This document shows positions 2,313 to 8,208 of a DNA stretch of 32,303 bases, piece after piece. Within the stretch, counting starts at the first letter, position 1. Every line of letters starts with the position of its first letter. This DNA comes from Pseudonocardia sp. GTDB lineage: Bacteria; Actinomycetota; Actinomycetes; Mycobacteriales; Pseudonocardiaceae. A program made the position numbers and the translations under genes. A model generated the notes under the pieces. The model saw only the letters and a program-made list of their open reading frames with translations. It did not search any database and was not told the DNA's origin. The DNA is taken from the NCBI GenBank assembly GCA_016794615.1, contig JAEUJO010000241.1, forward strand, positions 1 through 32,303, written 5' to 3'.

Positions 2313-2936
2313 TCAGGCTCCGATGTTGTAGCCGGCGAGCCGCCAGCGCGGGTGGTCGTCGCGTCGTGCCAGGACCGCCCAGCGGCAGTTGCCCAACCCG
2401 CCGAACGACGGCCACACCGGCGTCGGCAGGGCCATCAGGCCCGTCACGAGCCCGGCGATCAGACCGCCGTGCGCCACCAGCAGTGCCGTCTCGGACCGGT
2501 TGTCGGAGTCGGCGAACTCGGCCTCCAGCTCGTCCACCACCGGCCGTGAGCGCGTCACCACCGCGACTCGTGACTCGCCCGCGGGCGGAGCCCACTCCGG
2601 ATCCGATCGCCACTCGGCGATCGCGCCCGGATACTCGCGGTCGATCTCGGCGACCGTGTGCCCCTGCCAGCGTCCGAGGTGGGTCTCCCGCAGCCGCGGG
2701 TCGCATTTCACGGGTAGCCCGCACGCCGCACCGACGAGCTCGGCGGTGTCGACCGCGCGGCGCAGGTCCGAGCTGACCAGCCGATCCGGCGCCAGCTCCG
2801 CCAGGACCGGGGCGGCCGCGGCGGCCTGCTCGTGGCCGGTCGGGGTCAGGTGCGAGTCGAGATGGCCCTGCATGCGGCCCGCGACGTTGTAGTCGGTCTG
2901 CCCGTGACGCAACAGGATGATCCGGCGCAGCGTCAT
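2313..2936 (-). CDS. gpgP: Histidine phosphatase (phosphoglycerate mutase-like), probable glucosyl-3-phosphoglycerate phosphatase
   Basis: 207 residues of the histidine phosphatase superfamily. The catalytic RHG triad is at residues 10-12 (LLRHGQTDYN), the second-site arginine is in SSDLRRAVDTAE (about 56-66), an RETHLGRWQGHT segment follows at 83-94, and the second catalytic histidine is in LLVAHGG (156). The ATG overlaps the rsfS stop by 4 bases (ATGA), so the two are co-transcribed. In Mycobacterium the gene in this position after rsfS is gpgP, which dephosphorylates glucosyl-3-phosphoglycerate in the methylglucose lipopolysaccharide pathway. The name rests on that synteny. The mycobacterial octanoyltransferase gene that follows gpgP is missing here, so a general phosphatase role cannot be excluded. 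Confidence 0.85.
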   Translation of the reverse strand: MTLRRIILLRHGQTDYNVAGRMQGHLDSHLTPTGHEQAAAAAPVLAELAPDRLVSSDLRRAVDTAELVGAACGLPVKCDPRLRETHLGRWQGHTVAEIDREYPGAIAEWRSDPEWAPPAGESRVAVVTRSRPVVDELEAEFADSDNRSETALLVAHGGLIAGLVTGLMALPTPVWPSFGGLGNCRWAVLARRDDHPRWRLAGYNIGA

Positions 2937-3322
2937 GGGCGCTCGTCACCTGCCGCGGCCACGCGGGCCTCGGCGAACTCCACGCGCGGGCAGTCCTTCC
3001 ACAGCCGCTCCAGGCCGTAGAACCCGCGCTCCTCGTTGTGCTGGACGTGCACGACGACGTCGATGAAGTCGAGCAGCACCCAGCGACCCTCCCGCGCACC
3101 CTCGCGACGCACCGGCTTCACGCCGCGCTCGCGCAGCTTCTCCTCGACGGCGTCCACGATCGCCTCGACCTGCCGCTCGTTCGGCGCCGAGGCGATCACG
3201 AAGCAGTCGGTGATCACCAGCTGCTCCGAGACGTCGAGCACCACGATGTCGTGCGCCTTCTTGTCGGCGGCCGCCGCAACGGCCACCCGGGCCGTCTCCA
3301 ATGCCTGTTCGGTTGCGGTCAC
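2933..3322 (-). CDS. rsfS: Ribosome silencing factor RsfS (Iojap family)
   Basis: 129 residues with the Iojap/RsfS fold: AADKKAHDIVVLDVSEQLVITDCFVIAS in the N-terminal half, then NERQVEAIVDAVEEKL, WVLLDFIDVVVHVQ and the FYGLERLW motif near the end. RsfS binds ribosomal protein L14 and blocks joining of the subunits when nutrients are short. The GTG start at 3322 is preceded by a good ribosome-binding site (GGAGGG, about 5 bases upstream). It overlaps the gpgP-like gene by 4 bases. In related genomes nadD lies close upstream; here they are about 4.3 kb apart, separated by accessory genes. Confidence 0.95.
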   Translation of the reverse strand: MTATEQALETARVAVAAAADKKAHDIVVLDVSEQLVITDCFVIASAPNERQVEAIVDAVEEKLRERGVKPVRREGAREGRWVLLDFIDVVVHVQHNEERGFYGLERLWKDCPRVEFAEARVAAAGDERP

Positions 3323-3388: not shown

Positions 3389-4576
3389 CTATGCCGGTGC
3401 CGTACCGAGGTCCGGCGGAAGGTTCTTGCGCAGGCGGTTGAGCGCCCGGTGCTGGGCCACCCGGACCGCACCCGGGCTGGCCCCGACGATCTCCGCGGTC
3501 TCCTCCGCCGACAGCCCGACGACGATACGCAGCACGAGGATCTCGCGCTGCTTCTCGGGCAGCGTGTCGAGCAGGTCGCGCAGCCGCCCCGACAGCTCCC
3601 CGCGCAGCGCCCGTTGCTCGGGACCCGCTCCGGTTTCGACGGCGTCCGGGACGTCCGCGACGGGGTCCGTCCGCCCTCGGCTGACCGACCGGTGCGCGTC
3701 GATCACCTTGTGTCCCGCGATCCCGTAGACGAACGCGAGGAACGGTTTGCCCTGCACCCGGTAGTTGGGCAGGGCGGTCAGGACGGCAAGGCACACCTCC
3801 TGCGCCACGTCGTCCGCGGAGAGGAACGAGCGGTCGACGGGCCCGAGCCGGCCGCGGCAGTACCGCGCGACCAGCGGGCGGATCACCTCGAGCAGCCGCG
3901 CGACGGCGTCCCGGTCGCCCGCCATCGCCGCGGTGACCAGCTCGTCCGGCACCTGGGCGGTCGGCCGGCGCGCCGTGGCGGCATCCGGCACCGACGGCAC
4001 GGCAGTGGGCCGCCCGTCGTCGTTCGCGGCGACGAGCGCGAGCCCCCCGTCGATGTCCATCCCGCCCGCGACCCCGGCCACCAGGTCCTCGTAGGCCTGC
4101 TGCACCTCGCGCCCGTCGAGGTGGCTCCGGAGCGCGACCGCCCCGGCGTCGACGGCCGTCTGCACATCGTCCACGCCGATCTGCAGCACCAGCGCGATGT
4201 CTTCGGGAGGAAGGTGGTCCAACGACGCCGCCAGCACGTGCCCCTGCCTGCCCGGAAGCTGCACCAGGCCGGTCAGGACGGCGCCGTGCTGCGTCTGCTC
4301 GGGAAAGCGGAGCGCCGCCGGCGCGACGACCTCCGAGCGCGCCCGCCGCATCCCCCGGACGACGAGCAGGTGTGCGTACGTGCGCGGCGTTCCGGGCAGA
4401 TCCGTCCATCGACGCCACACCGTGGTCAGGGTCTCGTGCGCGAGTGCGGCCGCCCGGTCACCCGCCGCACCGAGCGCCATGGCGAACACCGCCAACCGCG
4501 GTGCGTCGGTCCGGTAGAGCTCGCCGAACTCGCTCCACCCCGATGCCGGCCCCCCCGACACCGCACTCACCCCCAT
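3389..4576 (-). CDS. SigD-like sigma-70 family factor with an extra ECF-like N-terminal half
   Basis: 395 residues, about twice the usual size. The C-terminal part (about 211-395) resembles mycobacterial SigD: an AGDRDAVARLLEVIRPLVAR start, region 2 with SADDVAQEVCLAVLTALPNY and PFLAFVYGIAGHKVIDAHR, and region 4 with LDTLPEKQREILVLRIVVGL, ETAEIVGASPGAVRVAQHRA. The first 160 residues look like a second, degenerate sigma factor: FGELYRTDAPRLAVFAMALG and ALAHETLTTVWRRW resemble region 2 of SigE-type ECF factors, and LDHLPPEDIALVLQIGVDDV resembles a weak region 4. If translation instead began at the internal Met173, a normal-sized SigD of about 223 residues would result. No anti-sigma gene is adjacent. 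SigD is normally found elsewhere (near guaB/groEL in mycobacteria), so its position here is unusual. Confidence 0.85.
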   Translation of the reverse strand: MGVSAVSGGPASGWSEFGELYRTDAPRLAVFAMALGAAGDRAAALAHETLTTVWRRWTDLPGTPRTYAHLLVVRGMRRARSEVVAPAALRFPEQTQHGAVLTGLVQLPGRQGHVLAASLDHLPPEDIALVLQIGVDDVQTAVDAGAVALRSHLDGREVQQAYEDLVAGVAGGMDIDGGLALVAANDDGRPTAVPSVPDAATARRPTAQVPDELVTAAMAGDRDAVARLLEVIRPLVARYCRGRLGPVDRSFLSADDVAQEVCLAVLTALPNYRVQGKPFLAFVYGIAGHKVIDAHRSVSRGRTDPVADVPDAVETGAGPEQRALRGELSGRLRDLLDTLPEKQREILVLRIVVGLSAEETAEIVGASPGAVRVAQHRALNRLRKNLPPDLGTAPA

Positions 4577-5025: not shown

Positions 5026-5391
5026 CTACGCGGGTACGCGGTTGGGCACGAGGGCGTCGGACACCGCGTCCAGCGCGCCCGGTACGGCTCGGTAGTAGAT
5101 CCAGGTACCGCGCCGATCACCCTCGATCAGCCCGGCCTCGCGCAGCACCTTCAGGTGGTGGGAGATGGTCGGGCCGGACACCTCGAAGCCGGCGGTCAGC
5201 TCACATACGCATGCCTGGCCCCCCTCGGCAGCGCCGATCATGCTGAGCAGCCGCAGCCGCACGGGGTCGGCGAGAGCCTTGAACACCCGCGCCAGCGCGA
5301 CAGCCCGTGCCTCCGACAGCGCGGCTCCGGTCACCGGGGTGCAGCACTCTCCAGCAACGATGCCTGCGCCTTGTCCAGCATGCTGAGACAC
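5026..5391 (-). CDS. arsR: ArsR/SmtB family metalloid-responsive repressor
   Basis: 121 residues from a GTG at 5391; an in-frame ATG at 5433 would add 14 residues but would put the ribosome-binding region inside the operator. The winged-helix core is clear: VFKALADPVRLRLLSMI, then the metal-site helix with ACVCEL (Cys61 and Cys63), then the recognition helix in SGPTISHHLKVLREAGLI and the wing GTWIYYR. A second cysteine pair (Cys16-Cys17, GECCTP) near the N terminus could complete an As(III) site. In the family, As(III) or Sb(III) binding releases the repressor from DNA. The gene diverges from arsM with a palindrome between them, so it probably represses both genes. Confidence 0.92.
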   Translation of the reverse strand: MSQHAGQGAGIVAGECCTPVTGAALSEARAVALARVFKALADPVRLRLLSMIGAAEGGQACVCELTAGFEVSGPTISHHLKVLREAGLIEGDRRGTWIYYRAVPGALDAVSDALVPNRVPA

Positions 5392-5436
5392 ACATCCATC
5401 TTGACGTGGATCGAAGTAGGGCGCAAGCTTCATGTC

Positions 5437-5450
5437 TTGATGAGCATCAA
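5437..5450. promoter_or_regulatory. Inverted repeat, probable ArsR operator between arsR and arsM
   Basis: TTGATG-AG-CATCAA is a perfect 6-base inverted repeat in the arsR-arsM gap, and another CATCAA half-site follows at 5462-5467. On the plus strand a TTGACG at 5401-5406 with a weak -10 (AAGCTT, 5425-5430) would place the operator at the arsM transcription start. ATCAA/TTGAT half-sites are typical for ArsR-family operators. Confidence 0.6.
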
Positions 5451-5477
5451 AACAGTCGGGACATCAAGGAGAATGCC

Positions 5478-6359
5478 GTGAGCCCGCGAACAGACGACCT
5501 GCGCAACCGCGTCCGGGACCGCTACGCCGCCGCCGCAACGGCGGCCATCAACGGGACCAGCGCGACCTGCTGCGGGGTGAGTGCCGATGGCGAGGCGCAG
5601 GAGATGGGCATCAGCGGGGGGTTCGGTGCCGAGCTGTACACCGGAGAGGACCGCGACAGTCTGCCCGCGGACGCCCTCGCCGCGAGCCTGGGCTGTGGTA
5701 ACCCGCTCGCCGTCGCCGAGCTGAACGACGGCGAGACCGTGCTCGACCTCGGTTCCGGTGGCGGCATCGACGTCCTGCTGTCCGCCCGCCGGGTCGGGCC
5801 GACCGGGACGGTGTACGGGGTGGACATCACCGACGAGATGCTGACGCTGGCGCGGGCCAATGCCGTGAAGGCGGGGGCGAGCAACGTCGAGTTCATCAAG
5901 GGCACCATGGAGGCCGTCCCGCTCGCGGACGAGTCGATCGACGTGGTCATCTCCAACTGCGTGATCAACTTGTCGACCGACAAGGCCGCCGTGCTCGCCG
6001 AAGCGCACCGCCTGCTGCGGCCCGGCGGTCGGTTCGGCGTCTCCGACGTCGTCGCCGATGACCACCTCGACGCAGCGCAGAGAGCCGAGCGAGGCAGCTA
6101 CGTCGGCTGCGTCGCGGGGGCGTTGAGCATCGGCGAGTACCGCGACGGGCTCACCGCCGCCGGGTTCACCGACATCAGCATCACCCTCACACACCACGTC
6201 GCCGACGGCATGCACTCGGCGATCGTGCGAGCCCGCAAGCCCGGCTCGGACGCCTGCTGCGGAGTCACCGCCTGCTGCACGCCCACCGAGCAGGCCGTCG
6301 ATCGCACCACCACGATTGGTGCCTCCGAGATTGCCGGCGGCTGCGGTTGCGTCTCCTGA
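5478..6359 (+). CDS. arsM: Arsenite S-adenosylmethionine methyltransferase
   Basis: 293 residues from the GTG at 5478, chosen because AAGGAG lies 6 bases upstream. The SAM-binding motif LDLGSGGGID is at 89-98 and the acidic end of strand 2 in GVDITDEM at 114-121. Cysteines expected for As(III) methyltransferases are present: the Cys31-Cys32 pair, Cys73 in LGCGNP, Cys161 in ISNCVINLS and Cys211 in YVGCVAG. The C-terminal tail has extra cysteine pairs (260-261, 266-267) and Cys289/Cys291, probably metalloid-binding. ArsM methylates arsenite to less toxic or volatile methylarsenicals in the cytoplasm. No arsenite pump or arsenate reductase gene is in the window. Confidence 0.95.
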   Translation: MSPRTDDLRNRVRDRYAAAATAAINGTSATCCGVSADGEAQEMGISGGFGAELYTGEDRDSLPADALAASLGCGNPLAVAELNDGETVLDLGSGGGIDVLLSARRVGPTGTVYGVDITDEMLTLARANAVKAGASNVEFIKGTMEAVPLADESIDVVISNCVINLSTDKAAVLAEAHRLLRPGGRFGVSDVVADDHLDAAQRAERGSYVGCVAGALSIGEYRDGLTAAGFTDISITLTHHVADGMHSAIVRARKPGSDACCGVTACCTPTEQAVDRTTTIGASEIAGGCGCVS

Positions 6360-7603: not shown

Positions 7604-7655
7604 TCCGCCGCTGGTCAGGGCTTCGCGTCGCGGTACAGGTTGCGCTTGGAGATGT
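7604..7655. repeat. Direct repeat within the nadD 3' end, candidate attL
   Basis: It covers the last 14 codons or so and the stop of nadD plus 11 following bases, and matches 6465-6516. The identical core is 7631-7655. Identity stops at 7655 toward the nadD interior. Confidence 0.75.
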
Positions 7656-8208
7656 ACTGCACCACGCCGTCCGGCACGAGGTACCAGACCGGCCTGCCCG
7701 CGGCGACGCGCGTGCGGCAGTCCGTCGACGAGATCGCCATGGCCGGTACCTCGATCAGCGTCACGGATCCCTCCGGCAGGTGGTCGTCGCCGAGTTCGTA
7801 GCCGGGGCGGGTCACGCCGACGAAGTGGGCGTACCGGAACACCCGGTCGACGTCGCGCCACGACAGGATCTGGGCCAGCGCGTCCGCACCGGTGATGAAG
7901 AACAGCTCGGCGTCGGGGGTGGCGGCGTGCAGGTCGGACAGCGTGTCGATGGTGTAGGTGGGGCCGCCGCGGTCGATGTCGACGCGGCTCGCCGAGAACC
8001 GCGGGTTCGACGCCGTCGCGATCACCGTCATGAGGTAGCGGTCCTCAGGCAGGCTGACCTCGCGCTCCACCTTCTGCCAGGGCTGACCGGTCGGCACGAA
8101 CAGGACCTCGTCCAGCGCGAACCGGTCGGCGACCTCGCTGGCCGCGACCAGGTGCCCGTTGTGGATCGGGTCGAAGGTCCCGCCCATGATGCCGATCTTG
8201 CGGTGCAC
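7615..8208 (-). CDS. nadD: Nicotinate-nucleotide adenylyltransferase
   Basis: 197 residues, the normal length. The nucleotidyltransferase motif is [11 protein letters not shown] at 9-19 (HxGH at 16-19) and the second motif is ISSTDCRTR (about 165-173). [10 protein letters not shown] and [14 protein letters not shown] are also typical of NadD. The enzyme makes deamido-NAD from nicotinate mononucleotide and ATP in the cytoplasm. The GTG start at 8208 has a TAGGCT hexamer 6 bases upstream and no Shine-Dalgarno sequence, suggesting a leaderless mRNA. The last codons form one of two direct repeats left by an integrative element; the C terminus (NLYRDAKP) may therefore be element-supplied. Confidence 0.96.

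Follow-up and report, generated by a model that had tools for sequence, protein, structure and literature searches.

A Pseudonocardia double sigma factor in which a degenerate SigE-type domain and a linker motif precede an intact ShbA/SigD-type sigma factor

In a stretch of 32,303 nucleotides of Pseudonocardia sp. DNA, hereafter called the window, one uninterrupted open reading frame of 395 codons encodes two sigma-factor-like halves in a row: an N-terminal half that looks like a degenerate SigE-type ECF domain, a short linker motif, and a C-terminal half that is an intact ShbA/SigD-type sigma factor (Table 1). We are highly confident that the sigma-like domain, the motif and the ShbA part make up a functional unit, and we give about even chances to the further proposal, drawn from sequence, of a three-part protein whose N-half would gate its C-half in cis. 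As the survey of relatives described below shows that both parts belong together, the N-half probably regulates the C-half. The earlier sequence-only reading of this gene knew of no described double sigma factor of this type, and our literature searches agree with it: no description of an ECF-ECF fusion was found in the open-access papers searched.

Table 1. Position of the double-sigma gene, its parts and its conserved neighbours in the window.
Feature	Coordinates	Strand	Remarks
Double-sigma gene	3389..4576	minus	395 aa, read 4576->3389; ATG at 4576; GTG codons 3 or 6 are alternative starts
N-half (residues 12-155): SigE-type ECF sigma-like domain, degenerate, with regions 2 and 4	4112..4543	minus	TIGR02983, AlphaFold2 model, 5uxx
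Place of region 2.3/2.4 (-10 recognition), residues 61-97	4286..4396	minus	least conserved part of the N-half
Recognition helix of N-half region 4, residues 135-152	4121..4174	minus	basic residues lost
Putative docking motif YEDLVAGVAGGMDIDGGLA, residues 162-180	4037..4093	minus	partner-trained HMM; two predicted helices
Met173, proposed internal start	4058..4060	minus	motif position L or M in the alignment
C-half (residues 206-386): ShbA/SigD-type ECF sigma factor, intact	3419..3961	minus	NF007230, 273.8 bits
rsfS-like gene, conserved neighbour directly downstream of the double-sigma gene	2933..3322	minus	same order in G018
nadD, conserved neighbour upstream	7615..8208	minus	immediately upstream of the double-sigma gene in G018

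A second fusion was found in the Pseudonocardia metagenome-assembled genome (MAG) C_No_T20_C_bin.45 (G018), also between nadD and rsfS, its N-half being 49% identical to that of the window and its C-half 83%. Conservation between the two proteins begins at residue 3, and translation may start at ATG1 or at GTG3/GTG6. Within the genus, rsfS was detected in 60 of 62 Pseudonocardia genomes, and among the best 30 of these 60 rsfS loci only the genome of the window and G018 carry the fusion upstream, the same two being the only ones of the 62 genomes with close N-half matches. As the sequence-only reading had noted, no anti-sigma gene adjoins the double-sigma gene, which is directly followed by rsfS and preceded by an arsR-like gene. 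Positions 5026-6359 of the window, between nadD and the double-sigma gene, hold a divergent pair of an ArsR-like regulator (minus strand) and an ArsM-like arsenite methyltransferase (plus strand), which is missing at the G018 locus, where nadD lies directly upstream of the fusion. A plasmid search found none.

Outside Pseudonocardia, searches with the N-half profile, verified by reading the DNA, led to another genus of the same family (g15), in which 24 genomes carry a fusion of the same layout and a further 13 carry the two halves as two adjacent genes. In most of these split pairs the stop of the sigE-like gene overlaps the start of shbA by 4 nt (GTGA, once ATGA); others have an ATG no more than about 10 nt further on, often behind a purine-rich stretch. 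Being fused in some genomes and split yet coupled in others is a classical sign of products that interact. All 60 sampled g15 genomes have a ShbA match above the cut-off, with a copy of canonical length in most, and a class-wide search of 395 genomes returned no additional ShbA fusions. At one further locus (L245, in G483) the SigE-like and ShbA-like parts are adjacent in different frames with no clear stop separating them, which points to either a frameshift or a third kind of arrangement. The survey also disposes of the suspicion that two genes were merged by a sequencing or assembly error: the assemblies behind the two Pseudonocardia copies are fragmented, that of G018 being a MAG, but fusion, frame and neighbours are the same in these two separate assemblies and several of the g15 fusions come from single-contig genomes, so that an artefact is refuted in practice and its probability is negligible.

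The C-half leaves little room for doubt as to its class. It matched the NCBIfam model NF007230 'ShbA' at E=7.7e-82 (curated cut-off, 209 bits) and keeps 83 of the 88 residues that are invariant in 20 ShbA-type sequences, namely 19 canonical ones and that of Dietzia. Its dN/dS between the window and G018 is 0.15. On its sequence, it should be able to load RNA polymerase. A canonical ShbA is present elsewhere in both fusion-bearing Pseudonocardia genomes (in the genome of the window, G000:C210); the G018 copy has the gene of the anti-sigma factor RsdA (PF16751) directly behind it. The C-half does not occupy this canonical place. Since rsfS rather than RsdA follows the double-sigma gene, and the canonical copy lies elsewhere, with RsdA beside it in G018, we regard the C-half as a ShbA-type paralogue and not as the ShbA orthologue. 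More ShbA-like paralogues of about 245 bits, on long branches, were seen in this and other Pseudonocardia genomes (G000:C126:13348-13890, L081, L082), and the window's own genome also has two ECF sigma genes side by side on the same strand (G000:C364:1791-2853; L084, L146).

The N-half is far less typical. Residues 1-173, searched alone, matched TIGR02983 'SigE family' over nearly the full profile (residues 15-155, E=2e-8) at 34.3 bits, below the curated cut-off of 141.55, and the Pfam matches to region 2 (E=0.04) and region 4_2 (E=0.18) were both under cut-off as well. An AlphaFold2 run with 19 relatives gave a model with a mean pLDDT of 89 and a pTM of 0.84, in which the predicted helical domains of region 2 and region 4 are both present, and the best solved fold was the ECF sigma factor of RpoE:NepR (5uxx, Z 16.6 over 147 residues, 15% identity). 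The proposal of a weakened ECF half ahead of a complete SigD thus holds and goes beyond chance resemblance, and the outcome that would have refuted it, a predicted N-half devoid of a sigma-like fold, did not occur. The top structures were ECF sigmas held by an anti-sigma factor or by their own extension (RpoE:NepR, CnrH, SigW, SigG1), followed by the sigma-like domain of PhyR (Z about 10-12). Sigmas bound to RNA polymerase aligned only with very large rmsd or over a single domain, the model being in the closed arrangement.

What has decayed in the N-half is the part that would touch DNA. Identity between the window and G018 falls to 19% over residues 61-97 compared with 67% over residues 1-60, and in the recognition helix of region 4 a single basic residue is left, with a net charge of -2, as against 3-5 basic residues and +3 in the free-standing relatives and +5 in the protein's own C-half. 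Because the -10 and -35 parts have decayed in one half and the invariant residues are kept in the other, DNA reading appears to be lost in the N-half and retained in the C-half. The g15 N-halves have a better region 4 (31.7-38.6 bits, above the Pfam cut-off) and may therefore still touch DNA. This is the one observation that would favor two working sigmas on one chain, a bispecific polymerase subunit; however, region 2 is weak in every N-half examined and the recognition helix of the window protein is acidic, and we consider such a subunit highly improbable.

Low profile scores, a long N-half branch and the almost unconserved residues 61-97 could also be read as signs of a passenger, a fused sigma gene drifting to loss next to a ShbA that alone is functional. 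Against this stands the mode of evolution of the N-half: its dN/dS of 0.43 (bootstrap 0.26-0.61, the latter being the 97.5% bound) between the window and G018 indicates less constraint than in the C-half, but the alignment of the two species has zero gaps and zero stops, and the N-half has been repeatedly retained in g15. Judged by these substitutions the N-half is under purifying selection, and we hold the decaying passenger to be unlikely.

The segment between the halves provides the remaining part of the protein. The decisive motif HMM was built solely from the partners of free-standing N-half relatives, that is, from other proteins, and it matched the linker of the window protein (10.2 bits), of G018 and of all fused and split g15 forms tested, with 0 of 1000 shuffles reaching the score in each case; by the same model the motif is absent from canonical ShbA. 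In six-frame ORFs comprising 2.2 million residues the model was nearly specific, nearly all high matches being partners or double sigmas; one clear false positive, in antisense, scored above 10 bits. The copy in the window protein is short and scores modestly. With a PSSM and with an HMM from g15 only, the window linker did not beat its shuffles (for G018, 0 of 2000 shuffles did as well under the g15-only model), and some partners are without a clear motif. AlphaFold2 predicts helices at 158-172 and 175-185 in this part of the protein.

The free-standing relatives themselves, from other genera and orders, in most cases overlap the next gene by 4 bases (ATGA/GTGA), and most of these overlapping partner genes encode one or two N-terminal copies of a motif like LVxxLxxxLDVEAGLAxI, followed by C-terminal parts that vary among pentapeptide repeats, VWA, a cold-shock domain and unclassified helical repeats. 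Such SigE-like/partner pairs, with an overlap of about 4 nt, were observed at L003/L247, L004/L248, L178/L249, L180, L182, L250, L252-L257, L259 and L261, the partners there having the N-terminal motif LDVEAGLxxI and those with helical repeats ending in RWSxxTRWP. The small SigE-like ECF and its motif-bearing partner have the look of a modular pair not described before. SigE-family genes from other subclades, taken as controls, show coupling too, but to genes of proteins that resemble membrane anti-sigma factors and are without the motif. It is from this pattern of coupling and motif that we infer a docking role for the linker. ECF-like effectors are described in two papers on conflict systems (PMC7159879, PMC8195603), and a term search of both did not turn up the SigE-like/partner pair. 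The RsdA of G018 (L162) carries ELVDLDTAVAAVL (ELVDLDTAV), which faintly resembles the motif and was not significant in the models tried.

The motif also bears on the suggestion of the sequence-only reading that Met173 could yield a normal-sized factor from the same gene. If translation began there, or at a near GTG, the product would be an ordinary ShbA and the long form would be minor, and it is true that Met is found in both Pseudonocardia copies and that a G-rich stretch precedes it in the window. Met173, however, falls inside the conserved motif, at a position that is Leu in g15, and the ShbA genes of the split genomes begin upstream of the motif, so the internal start is unlikely; we would put it well behind the decaying passenger.

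With regard to origin, the C-half of the window groups, inside Pseudonocardia, with the canonical ShbA proteins of the two fusion-bearing genomes, and a single clade of all fused and split C-halves was rejected (AU p=0.006). In the N-half tree, where the window sits on a long branch, a single clade was not rejected (p=0.195), and the common linker motif ties the N-parts together. It follows from the C-half tree that ShbA was captured more than once or that the C-half of an old pair was replaced by the resident shbA; either way, the pairing of a sigma-like domain with ShbA is favored.

These observations lead us to the following scheme. The degenerate SigE-type domain (part 1) and the linker motif (part 2) would be the module that is encoded elsewhere by a coupled gene pair, one gene for a sigma-like protein and the other for a motif-bearing partner, and in the window protein the place of the partner's variable C-terminal part would be taken by the ShbA-type sigma (part 3). 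By docking in cis onto the helix of the motif, the N-half would gate the C-half, most likely keeping it off until a signal or a partner displaces it, in which case N-half and motif would stand in for the RsdA-type anti-sigma factor that controls canonical ShbA. We rate inhibition in cis, as judged from sequence, a little short of an even bet, since these data would suit a decoy or an activating role as well; the full-length AlphaFold2 model is weak (pLDDT 65, pTM 0.44), so the interface between the halves cannot be read from it. The idea of a built-in inhibitor or partner-binding module gains indirect support from the coupled split genes, the shared motif and the purifying selection on the N-half. 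More broadly, and with still more reserve, there may exist in actinobacteria a widespread modular system built on a small sigma-like adaptor, whose translation is often coupled to that of its partner. The adaptor would dock on the short motif at the N-terminus of proteins whose C-terminal parts are interchangeable, the ShbA sigma factor being one such part, and in this system the Pseudonocardiaceae would have fused the adaptor to a sigma effector and so brought it under control in cis.

The strongest competitor of gating in cis is mimicry in cis after the manner of PhyR: the N-half would act as a decoy, binding an anti-sigma factor (RsdA, the one of canonical ShbA, or some other) so that sigma activity is released. 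The PhyR domain ranks high among the folds matched by the N-half and is itself an ECF fold that has degenerated in promoter and core binding (PMC8103513), and an RsdA gene does adjoin canonical shbA in G018. On the other hand, the double sigma has no receiver domain, the motif of the coupled partners indicates an internal ligand, and RsdA is not an obvious ligand for an N-half that is SigE-like and not SigD-like. We therefore think a decoy rather doubtful, though the most plausible of the alternatives, and retain gating in cis as the preferred reading.

The fused and two-gene versions found in relatives constitute a natural set with a sigma-fold extension, which allows the regulator to be put in or taken out by genetic means, and the docking motif may be the hallmark of a family of sigma-like adaptor pairs not described so far. 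In Streptomyces, ShbA transcribes hrdB, the principal sigma gene, and its own gene (PMC9205884); as ShbA-type factors drive hrdB there, regulating a ShbA paralogue could have effects right down to the core of transcription.

The nearest described systems are extended ECFs, PhyR mimicry and SigO-RsoA (PMC8999054, PMC8103513). By sequence, the C-half is a full member (NF007230) of the group that comprises the ShbA of Streptomyces, which controls hrdB, and the SigD-RsdA systems of Mycobacterium and Corynebacterium. Regulatory extensions substitute for anti-sigma factors in many ECFs (PMC8103513, PMC8999054), and the double sigma resembles them in having a conserved extra domain on an ECF and no adjacent anti-sigma gene; their extensions, however, are mostly C-terminal and not sigma-like, whereas here a sigma fold stands at the N-terminus, and for N-terminal ECF extensions mechanistic information is stated to be lacking (PMC8103513). 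SigO-RsoA of Bacillus subtilis likewise joins two sigma-related polypeptides in one unit, but there regions 2 and 4 are divided between the subunits and here each half has both. PhyR, the alphaproteobacterial anti-anti-sigma factor with an N-terminal sigma-like domain, also puts to regulatory use an ECF fold whose promoter-reading parts are degraded and which is joined to another domain; that other domain is a receiver in PhyR and a ShbA sigma in the double sigma, which has, in addition, a SigE-like origin and a docking motif.
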